Shown in pieces: positions 59,694 through 61,717 of a stretch of DNA of 64,000 bases. A model generated the notes under the pieces. It searched no databases, was not told where the DNA came from, and was given only the letters and a program-made list of their open reading frames with translations. A program made the position numbers and the translations under genes. How positions within the stretch are numbered: the first letter of the stretch is position 1; the number at the start of each line of letters is the position of its first letter. The stretch spans positions 1 through 64,000 of the forward strand of contig JADLBH010000011.1 of NCBI GenBank assembly GCA_020847855.1. The letters are read 5' to 3'. The DNA is from Fimbriimonadaceae bacterium. Lineage in GTDB: Bacteria; Armatimonadota; Fimbriimonadia; Fimbriimonadales; Fimbriimonadaceae.

Positions 59694-60183
59694 ATGAACA
59701 CAGACAGACAGACAGACAGACAGACAGACAGACAGACAGACAAATCGCTACCATAGGAACGTTCGACGAATCGTGGCTTCGGTCGCCGCGCTGGCCAGTA
59801 CGCTTGTGCTCGTGTCGCCGTTTGCGCCAATTCAACGACTTGTACAACCTAGTGCTTGGCCCGAAGGCGAGCACCTGGTGAAACTGAACTCCAAATCCAC
59901 GAGTGTGTACTTCGTACGAGTAGCGAATCCGACGCTTTCCAATCTCCGGGTGGCCATCGCGTCCGACTGTTGCTCCATCGAAGGAATCGCCTTTGAATCA
60001 ATCCCGCCCTTCAGCACGAGGGTCTTGCGAGGCGAGGTGGATTGGCAGCACGCGAGAGTGGAGGGAGGTGTCCTGCGCGTGGCAGTCCGGATTGCTTCCG
60101 ATACTGGAAACCGGGATCAACTCCTTGCCTATCACGTCGCGGAAGGCGACTACGTGAGCGCCCGCTACGGAGGAGGAAAGTAG
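59694..60183 (+). CDS. DUF1573-like secreted protein, cassette copy 2, interrupted by a frame-shifting repeat (apparently OFF)
   Basis: ATG 59694 has GGAGGT nine bases upstream. As given, its frame reads MNTDRQTDRQTDRQTDKSLP and stops at 59754-59756. Losing one GACA unit (or gaining two) would bring it into the long frame ending at 60183. That frame then yields NRYHRNVRRIVASVAALAST and LVLVSPFA, a proper signal peptide. The mature part has LVKLNSKSTSVYFVRVANPT, IASDCCSIEG and IPPFSTRVLRGEVDWQHARV, homologous to the 41309 protein. A GTG at 59773 could start it alone, but would cut off the signal and has no good ribosome site. Function unknown. Confidence 0.72.
59700..59742 (+). repeat. Tetranucleotide repeat (GACA)10 inside the 5' coding region
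   Basis: Ten perfect GACA units fill 59703-59742, preceded by a partial unit (ACA, 59700-59702). The tract begins two codons after the ATG with the strong Shine-Dalgarno. Because 4 is not divisible by 3, gain or loss of units changes the reading frame, as in phase-variable loci of Haemophilus and Moraxella. Such a repeat is unusual in this GC-rich window and is the only one I found. Confidence 0.95.
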
Positions 60184-60536
60184 TGCTGCACCTGCTTAAG
60201 GATCGAAAGGTGCAGCTTGTCCTTGCAGTAGCGATGTTAACGAGCGTGGCGAACGCCAACTTCTTACGATGCTACAGTTCTCAGCGTGAGTTCATTGGCA
60301 TCGCATGTCTTCAGAGCGAATCCGGGTGTCCGAGCCCCAATCCAGAATGTGTACGCCACGTCGTGACGGACTACACTTGTGCCGGAATAGGTTTCGGCTG
60401 TAGCCTAGCGTTCGGAACACTTACGGGCCAACGTTGGGTGATTCCGTGTGTCACAACGATCGTAGGCACGTGTGCTTGCCCAGAGCTGAGCGGGCCCCCA
60501 ACCGAGGAGTACAACTATGCCGGATACTCGTGCTAA
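60183..60536 (+). CDS. Ten-cysteine secreted mini-protein, cassette copy 2
   Basis: This 117-residue protein starts at GTG 60183, overlapping the previous stop, with GGAGGAGG about six bases upstream. The signal peptide is VQLVLAVAMLTSVANA, with cleavage before NFLRC. The mature part of about 92 residues has exactly ten cysteines spaced 11, 6, 6, 9, 6, 15, 7, 1, 17, including CAC near the end, and the last Cys is the final residue. The match with the copy at 42485 lies in the spacing and the CxC; other residues differ widely. Five disulfides are likely. Function unknown. Confidence 0.82.
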   Translation: MLHLLKDRKVQLVLAVAMLTSVANANFLRCYSSQREFIGIACLQSESGCPSPNPECVRHVVTDYTCAGIGFGCSLAFGTLTGQRWVIPCVTTIVGTCACPELSGPPTEEYNYAGYSC

Positions 60537-60670
60537 CTTACGATTCCCAATGTCGCGCGGATCTGTTCTCAGAAACCGCCGCCGACTCGCTATCGCTGTT
60601 GAAATCGAATCCTCGATTTGCAACCATTGACCAAAGCACCGACACACTGAGAGAACCAACTCTTGGGAAC

Positions 60671-61717
60671 ATGAAAATGAGCAGAACGCAAACCGATCGT
60701 CCCTATTTGGACGCCATGCCGGAGCCGACTCACCGTCGAGCGGCTTGGCGATCCCTCGTACCGTTCACTCTGGCCCTCACCGCCTGCGGCTGGGCCCAGA
60801 CCGTGAAAGGCACCATGACCACCACGCTCCCGCCGAGCGGAAAGACGGTCCAACAAGAGTACGACCGAAGGGTCTTCGAGCTTCGACGCGGAGGAATGAC
60901 CGAGAACCAGATCCAAGCCTCCGACGAAATGATCCGTCACAGTGCCGAGCGGCTCGCCGCCGGACTGGGGAGCACCGGGCCATTCGAGTACGTCCGAGAC
61001 GGCGTGAACACCTGGGTCACGTATCCCGTCAGCTCGACCAGCCTCGGCAGCGACCAGTCGCAGCACATCGAGTCGTACGACGGCACCACGACCGTCCATG
61101 TAGGGCCCTCGGGCACCGTCGTCGAGGCCGGCGACAAGCGCACCTTCACCGGCAACGCGCTCTGGCAGGCCGCGCTCTGCGGCACCGTCCAGTCTTGGCT
61201 ACAAGAGGTCTCCGCGACCCAGGGGCCGGACGGCGAAGTCGTCGTCTTCGAGGCCGTGAAAGACGAGATGATCCACCGCCTCACCGTCACCTACGCAGAC
61301 TCGGCGAGGGCGAGGGTGGTCGCGGTCGACCAGGGCTACGTCACTCCGGCACAGTTCGTCAAGCCGGGGGTGGACCCGTACGTCCGGGCCGCCAAGGCGA
61401 CGGTCCAACAGTCCCCCGCCCAGGTTGACTTCGACTTCTTCGCAGGGGGCAAAGCGACGCAGCACATCACGCTCGCGATCGAGAGCGAGTCGCCCGACGC
61501 CTCGGTGGCGCTCCTGCGGGGTGTCAAGCCCGGCTCGAAGGTCGTGGACCTTCGCCTCGGGGCGAAGGCGCCGGTCAACTACGTGTTCGACGGGAAGCTG
61601 CCGGAACACTCGGCCATCGCCTCGGAGCCCGCGCCCGTCGGGCTCGCGCCGCTCGGCGCTTCGTTCGCCGGTCTCGTCGGCCTCGTTGCCGCAGTCTGGC
61701 TCTGGAAGCGCAAATGA
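60671..61717 (+). CDS. Membrane-anchored exported protein, cassette copy 2
   Basis: This 348-residue protein starts at ATG 60671 (ATG 60716 is an alternative). A signal-type segment (AWRSLVPFTLALTACGWAQ) is followed by an external domain and a single C-terminal anchor (LAPLGASFAGLVGLVAAVWL) with tail WKRK. LRRGGMTENQIQASDEM and ESYDGT match the 347-residue protein of cassette copy 1. Its bases are more GC-rich than those of the two genes before it. No enzymatic motif is seen. A gap of 134 bases separates it from the mini-protein gene. Confidence 0.75.
   Translation: MKMSRTQTDRPYLDAMPEPTHRRAAWRSLVPFTLALTACGWAQTVKGTMTTTLPPSGKTVQQEYDRRVFELRRGGMTENQIQASDEMIRHSAERLAAGLGSTGPFEYVRDGVNTWVTYPVSSTSLGSDQSQHIESYDGTTTVHVGPSGTVVEAGDKRTFTGNALWQAALCGTVQSWLQEVSATQGPDGEVVVFEAVKDEMIHRLTVTYADSARARVVAVDQGYVTPAQFVKPGVDPYVRAAKATVQQSPAQVDFDFFAGGKATQHITLAIESESPDASVALLRGVKPGSKVVDLRLGAKAPVNYVFDGKLPEHSAIASEPAPVGLAPLGASFAGLVGLVAAVWLWKRK

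Follow-up and report, generated by a model that had tools for sequence, protein, structure and literature searches.

A conserved exported-protein cassette beside rho in a Fimbriimonadaceae genome carries a repeat array suggestive of slipped-strand phase variation

Introduction

Three genes for exported proteins lie between rho and yajQ in the genome of a Fimbriimonadaceae bacterium, and a tetranucleotide array stands within the first codons of the first of them. This raises the question of what the gene set is, how it came to lie there and what the array does. The locus was analysed within a window of 64,000 nucleotides, which is the whole stretch of DNA under study (G000:C11:1-64000), from an assembly of 2.53 Mb in 41 contigs that is 97% complete.

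Layout of cassette copy 2

The features of the locus, here called cassette copy 2, are given below in coordinates of the window.

58109..59524, + strand: rho, intact, directly 5' of cassette copy 2 (Pfam ATP-synt_ab and Rho_RNA_bind)
59436..59525, + strand: 3' end of rho, first copy of the 90-nt direct repeat found on either side of the cassette (repeat search)
59679..59683, + strand: GGAGG, possible ribosome-binding site, ten bases before ATG 59694 (sequence reading)
59694..59696, + strand: ATG, probable gene 1 start, in another frame than the gene as assembled
59698..60183, + strand: gene 1 frame, Ig-like/DUF1573-like exported protein, with a signal peptide that starts right after the array
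59700..59742, + strand: (ACAG)10.75, among the first gene 1 codons, proposed to act as a phase-variation switch (TRF)
60183..60536, + strand: gene 2, small exported ten-Cys protein
60671..61717, + strand: gene 3, exported 348-aa protein with a C-terminal membrane anchor
61770..61859, + strand: 3' end of rho, second copy, 97% identical, downstream of the cassette
62153..62647, + strand: yajQ (DUF520), right-hand neighbour of copy 2 (Pfam)

The order of a DUF1573-like gene, a ten-Cys gene and a 348-residue anchored-protein gene is that of another gene set in the window (copy 1) minus its pilin, as a sequence-only reading of this DNA had proposed. The coordinates also bear out the lengths given there for the large proteins (347 residues in copy 1, 348 in copy 2), and the motifs LR.GGMT and ES.DG are indeed common to both, as LRRGGMT/LREGGMT and ESYDG/ESFDG. 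Position 59694, which had been taken as the start of gene 1, proved to be an out-of-frame ATG that, as assembled, reads 20 codons through (ACAG)n and then meets a stop. The mature part of gene 2 contains 10 Cys. Its GTG start shares one base with the TAG stop of gene 1 (60181-60183), so that copy 2 has no space for a pilin. A sigma-70-like promoter was looked for at copy 2 and none was found.

Common origin of copies 1 and 2

Copy 1 lies upstream in the same window and consists of four genes.

41309..41707, + strand: gene 1 of copy 1, without repeat array
41707..42465, + strand: pseudopilin, optional member (N_methyl, E 8.5e-8)
42485..42856, + strand: Cys-rich gene
42844..43887, + strand: large anchored protein, 347 aa

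Direct BLASTP comparison of the two copies gave weak matches for the large gene (E 1e-5) and gene 1 (E 0.002), and no match between the Cys genes. Pairwise profile alignment, the comparison that the earlier reading had put forward for the three protein pairs, links all of them. Profiles were built from two disjoint sets of relatives, and with E-values that refer to a single comparison they align across the copies for the large gene (probability 99.4, E 6.7e-22), the Cys gene (probability 92, E 5.6e-7) and gene 1 (probability 84, E 7.7e-6). These profile-profile alignments, together with intermediates found in relatives, support a common origin of the paired genes. A further cassette (cassette 3) occurs on another contig, where its gene 3 (G000:C37, 386073-387098, minus strand) is 32% identical to that of copy 2. 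The similarities show copy 2 to be one of three paralogous cassettes in this Fimbriimonadaceae genome.

The pilin of copy 1 bears a prepilin N-terminal methylation motif (PF07963, E 8.5e-8, 31.9 bits against a cut-off of 21.2) and, by eye, an H...DGH stretch. In both respects it resembles pseudopilins of the H-X9-DG type; however, that family was absent from the NCBIfam results for the copy 1 pilin, and copy 2 is pilin-free.

Distribution of the cassette

A gene 3 profile matched 11 of 85 Fimbriimonadaceae genomes, which hold 14 large genes. Directly upstream of 12 of these stands a Cys gene, and the remaining two large genes (G032, G013) stand alone. Five of the 12 cassettes with a Cys gene carry a pilin (G000 copy 1, G094, G097-C438, G026 and G104), and seven do not (G000 copies 2 and 3, G007, G062, G097-C436, G091 and G020). 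The pilin is thus optional and the other three genes form the core, as had been supposed. An intact gene 1 can be recognised in 10 of these cassettes; it is broken in G007 and reduced to a remnant in G097-C438. In the Cys family (11 members) nine Cys columns are invariant and the tenth is nearly so.

Across the phylum, 32 of 291 Armatimonadota genomes match gene 3 at E <= 1e-6, many of the distant matches covering the C-terminal part only. At four of six further loci (L194, L196, L198 and L199) gene 3 has Cys genes next to it, in tandem in L196 and L198, and a pilin occurs in L195 and L199. The gene set is a conserved exported-protein cassette of Armatimonadota. At L198 (G179:C24:3000-15000), in another Armatimonadota family, the tandem Cys-rich and anchored-protein genes occur with a DUF1573-like gene.

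Insertion between rho and yajQ

The two copies of the 90-nt rho end differ at three positions (59439, 59518 and 59523). No more than these two occur in the whole genome, and around cassette 3 no rho-end repeat was found within 14 kb. Rho was found in 35 of 37 relatives. It is adjacent to yajQ without the cassette in G010 and G015, where other genes occupy the interval, and the yajQ loci of 22 other relatives have no rho within 1.5 kb. Rho tails could be read at 21 of 30 rho loci, this genome's own included, and not at nine; the readable tails in relatives run into unrelated sequence.

An insertion between these two genes left its footprint in the duplicated rho end. The cassette would have inserted there and left two rho 3' ends, and these copies could also permit its excision. 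Their near identity suggests a recent insertion. The cassettes as such, in contrast, are old. Elements inserted at the 3' end of housekeeping genes likewise have the gene end duplicated on both sides and the upstream gene intact; in contrast to them, no integrase or transposase was seen in the copy 2 insert. Recent import had also been argued from base composition, an argument that was dropped given that cassette GC varies gene by gene. On the other side of the site, beside yajQ, the minus strand (62708-63997) encodes a protein of FG-GAP/VCBS-type repeats, as judged by eye.

Predicted products

The name DUF1573-like, given to gene 1 in the sequence-only reading, holds for the family, two of whose ten members match PF07610 weakly (best E 8e-4) and short of the Pfam cut-off, and not for copy 2 gene 1 itself, which gave no match to that model. 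Genes 2 and 3 matched no family in Pfam or NCBIfam. DUF3828 was considered for gene 3 and rejected (E 0.0035, below its cut-off, in one of 13 members). Structure models of genes 3 and 2 from three-row alignments were of low confidence (mean pLDDT 44 and 48, respectively), and a Foldseek search of PDB with the low-confidence gene 3 model gave no match at E <= 0.001.

The products of the cassette are most likely displayed at the cell surface, with roles guessed from signal peptides, Cys pattern and anchor. Gene 2 would supply a disulphide-stapled small protein, gene 1 an Ig-like periplasmic or surface partner and gene 3 a C-terminally anchored stalk, which a pseudopilin may join in some versions of the cassette. 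In Bacteroides, loci of three-gene layout encode a DUF1573 protein, a small NVEALA protein and a 6-bladed propeller lipoprotein. The cassette shares with them a DUF1573-type protein, a small exported Cys-containing protein and a larger anchored protein, but the corresponding Pfam families gave no match to genes 2 and 3, and the resemblance is one of layout only. A literature search on Bacteroides NVEALA/DUF1573 loci returned nothing relevant.

The ACAG array and the gene 1 frame

Open from 59698 onwards, the gene 1 frame lacks a start codon ahead of the array. 3' of the array it translates to NRYHRNVRRIVASVAALASTLVLVSPFA, a sequence typical of the start of a signal peptide, and an in-frame internal GTG lies at 59773. 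Frame arithmetic for 7 to 13 units gives two lengths, 9 and 12, at which ATG 59694 is joined to gene 1, in products of 161 or 165 aa whose basic n-region and hydrophobic h-region make up a signal peptide. With 10, 11 or 13 units gene 1 is left out of frame, translation stopping after 20 codons at 10 units and after 63 at 11. By this arithmetic alone, a change in unit number moves gene 1 in or out of frame; the repeat numbers are those of one consensus assembly that has no same-genus relative.

At the corresponding place cassette 3 has GTG-(GACA)5, which is likewise out of frame; 3 or 6 units would bring it into frame. The genome contains (ACAG)4 at two sites only, those of copy 2 and cassette 3, and 60 relatives contain none. 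An array is present in these two cassettes and absent from copy 1 and from 18 cassette loci examined in relatives, which implies that switching is no general property of the cassette.

From these features we infer that copy 2 has a slipped-strand contingency gene in gene 1, where replication slippage would add or remove ACAG units. At 9 or 12 units ATG 59694 would read into the full signal peptide and gene 1 would be exported; at 10 units, as assembled, or at 11 its translation would end early, after 20 or 63 codons. Since the start of gene 2 overlaps the stop of gene 1, loss of gene 1 translation should lower gene 2 too, and through this coupling the array would switch the cassette products stochastically. 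Such switching would aid escape from phage or grazers, or vary cell-cell contacts.

Arrays elsewhere in the genome

A total of 1,185,315 bases (47% of the genome) was scanned for arrays with units of 2-11 bases. Twelve arrays with 4-8-base units were found, namely those of copy 2 and cassette 3, AGCCTCA (five and eight units), TCGGCGCA (four and five), TGGCG (five), GCCCATG (five), CTCGCGG (three), GAGCCGA (three), TCAGG (eleven) and ATGCGCTA (seven). None of the 12 has a unit length divisible by 3. In eight order-4 Markov simulations of equal length the array counts were 1, 0, 0, 0, 0, 0, 0 and 0. Eleven of the twelve mark the 5' end of an ORF that runs on directly into a hydrophobic signal-like segment, the exception being (GAGCCGA)3 in L139. 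Under a strict 5'-end criterion, which also limits the upstream extent of the open frame, 9 of 12 arrays pass; the share among 3000 random positions is 3.9% (p 4e-11).

With the same thresholds, 400,000 bases of three relatives contained no array, about four being expected at the rate of this genome (P 0.017). Among 85 genomes, four units of TCAGG occur in this one only. Three units of AGCCTCA occur here and in one other genome, there not at the start of an exported gene. A heptamer array in G067 was set aside as a comparable case, as it is not at the start of an exported-protein gene. Pfam searches with nine other array-bearing genes returned no families.

The nearest start codon before the array is out of frame at all nine gene starts tested (chance 2.6%), which hints that the wrong start was taken for some loci. 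Three genes have upstream in-frame starts (GTG -32 in both L113 genes, ATG -36 in L167); if these are counted as ON, three of nine are in frame, matching chance.

Individual loci differ in detail. L111 (G000:C37:182535-182572 and 185422-185480) contains two exported-protein genes that open with ATG-(AGCCTCA)5 and ATG-(AGCCTCA)8, each followed by one of two near-identical signal peptides and both out of frame as assembled. L113 (G000:C37:227520-227567 and 230213-230268) has two exported-protein genes with (TCGGCGCA)4 and (TCGGCGCA)5 behind ATG, and a TTGACA...TACGCT box there would put the transcript start near the ATG. At L167 (G000:C2:29456-29546), (TCAGG)11 lies between ATG and a membrane segment, and two alternative starts in different frames mean that two repeat states could be ON. 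At L177 (G000:C10:112557-112612), (ATGCGCTA)7 lies just after TTGACA and ahead of the start codon of an exported-protein gene; every unit holds ATG CGC TAA, a start followed immediately by a stop.

Taken as a set, the arrays look like multi-locus slipped-strand phase variation, a phasome, and suggest random on-off switching of the surface in this bacterium, as in some pathogens. By extrapolation from the eleven loci in the half of the genome that was scanned, about two dozen would be expected in all. A wider proposal is that a bacterium from a phylum not noted for pathogens has a multi-locus phasome which independently switches some two dozen exported proteins, two copies of the undescribed, phylum-wide Cys-rich cassette among them, and that copy 2 has a second and coarser switch, its rho-end repeats letting it be excised or exchanged with rho left intact. 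We put this forward tentatively, as less likely than not to hold.

Alternative explanations

Three other accounts of the array have to be weighed. It could be a neutral microsatellite in the n-region of a signal peptide, with translation from GTG 59773 and no switching. Such n-regions tolerate sequence change, and the internal start is in frame and could give a product whatever the array length. However, the product from GTG 59773 would have no basic n-region, and that from the internal ATG in cassette 3 would be without much of the hydrophobic core. Neutral coding arrays should moreover favour units of 3 and 6, which are missing from the set of 12, and an ACAG-type unit stands at the corresponding place in two strongly diverged cassettes (2 and 3). 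This account is unlikely. A role in the RNA leader or promoter, through spacing, structure or binding and not through the reading frame, would fit L177, where the array precedes the start codon close to a TTGACA box. Against it, the array lies between the start codon and the signal peptide, inside the ORF, in copy 2, cassette 3, both L111 genes, L125 and L135, and we hold this account to be quite unlikely.

That gene 1 of copy 2 is a frameshifted pseudogene, in a cassette decaying after its insertion beside rho, is the least probable of the three. Such cassettes do decay, as is seen in G007, whose array-free gene 1 has been disrupted by a frameshift and a stop, in the gene 1 remnant of G097-C438 and in G026, whose large gene is split. 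Yet in copy 2 the repeat count is the sole lesion, genes 2 and 3 and the remainder of gene 1 being open, and other genes of the same genome have exactly the same structure with different units. The combined reading, with copy 2 as one of three paralogous cassettes, gene 1 as a slipped-strand contingency gene, surface display of the products and insertion between rho and yajQ, is in our judgement probably correct.

Relation to known phase-variable loci

Simple sequence repeats bring about translational phase variation at the contingency loci of Haemophilus influenzae, Neisseria and Moraxella. As in copy 2, a tetranucleotide array stands just past the start codon and a change of one unit shifts the frame; surface or exported targets and several loci per genome are further points of likeness. 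The present case differs in its host, a member of Armatimonadota, in the mixture of 4-, 5-, 7- and 8-base units in one genome and in its unnamed exported targets.

Multi-locus phase-variable genomes are described in a 2025 review mainly from host-adapted bacteria (PMC11868660). Table 3 of that review counts 153 genera with long SSRs, and its section 8 treats the apparent restriction of many-locus genomes to pathogens as a major open question, asking whether it reflects biology or database bias (PMC11868660). Repeats with units of 6-9 bases are characterised elsewhere as little studied, and repeats near the N-terminus as suggestive of frame-shifting phase variation (PMC4692102). Our literature search retrieved no paper that joins Armatimonadetes with phase variation and none on this system. 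Slipped-strand phase variation is well known; what would be new are several loci with mixed unit lengths in one Armatimonadota genome, an undescribed conserved cassette as one target, and arrays preceding unnamed exported proteins.

Judging from its family, the organism is presumably no pathogen. A multi-locus case in Armatimonadota, if true, would be direct evidence for database bias and would suggest that selection comes from phage, grazers or neighbours. The cassette represents a conserved exported system, as yet unnamed, in a phylum where functional studies are few, and the arrays would show which of the cassette's proteins face variable selection.

Other features

The window gene at 55561-56232 and, in the separate locus L126, a minus-strand gene before position 7682 of that locus encode exported proteins that by eye are PEP-CTERM-like and begin with D(D/S)FE(N/S)LP. 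Ahead of the L126 gene stands (GCCCATG)5, every unit of which holds a start codon. Also, a 112-nt repeat occurs in three copies (76-100% identical) between 7556 and 12833 of the window, at 7556, 9445 and 12722.
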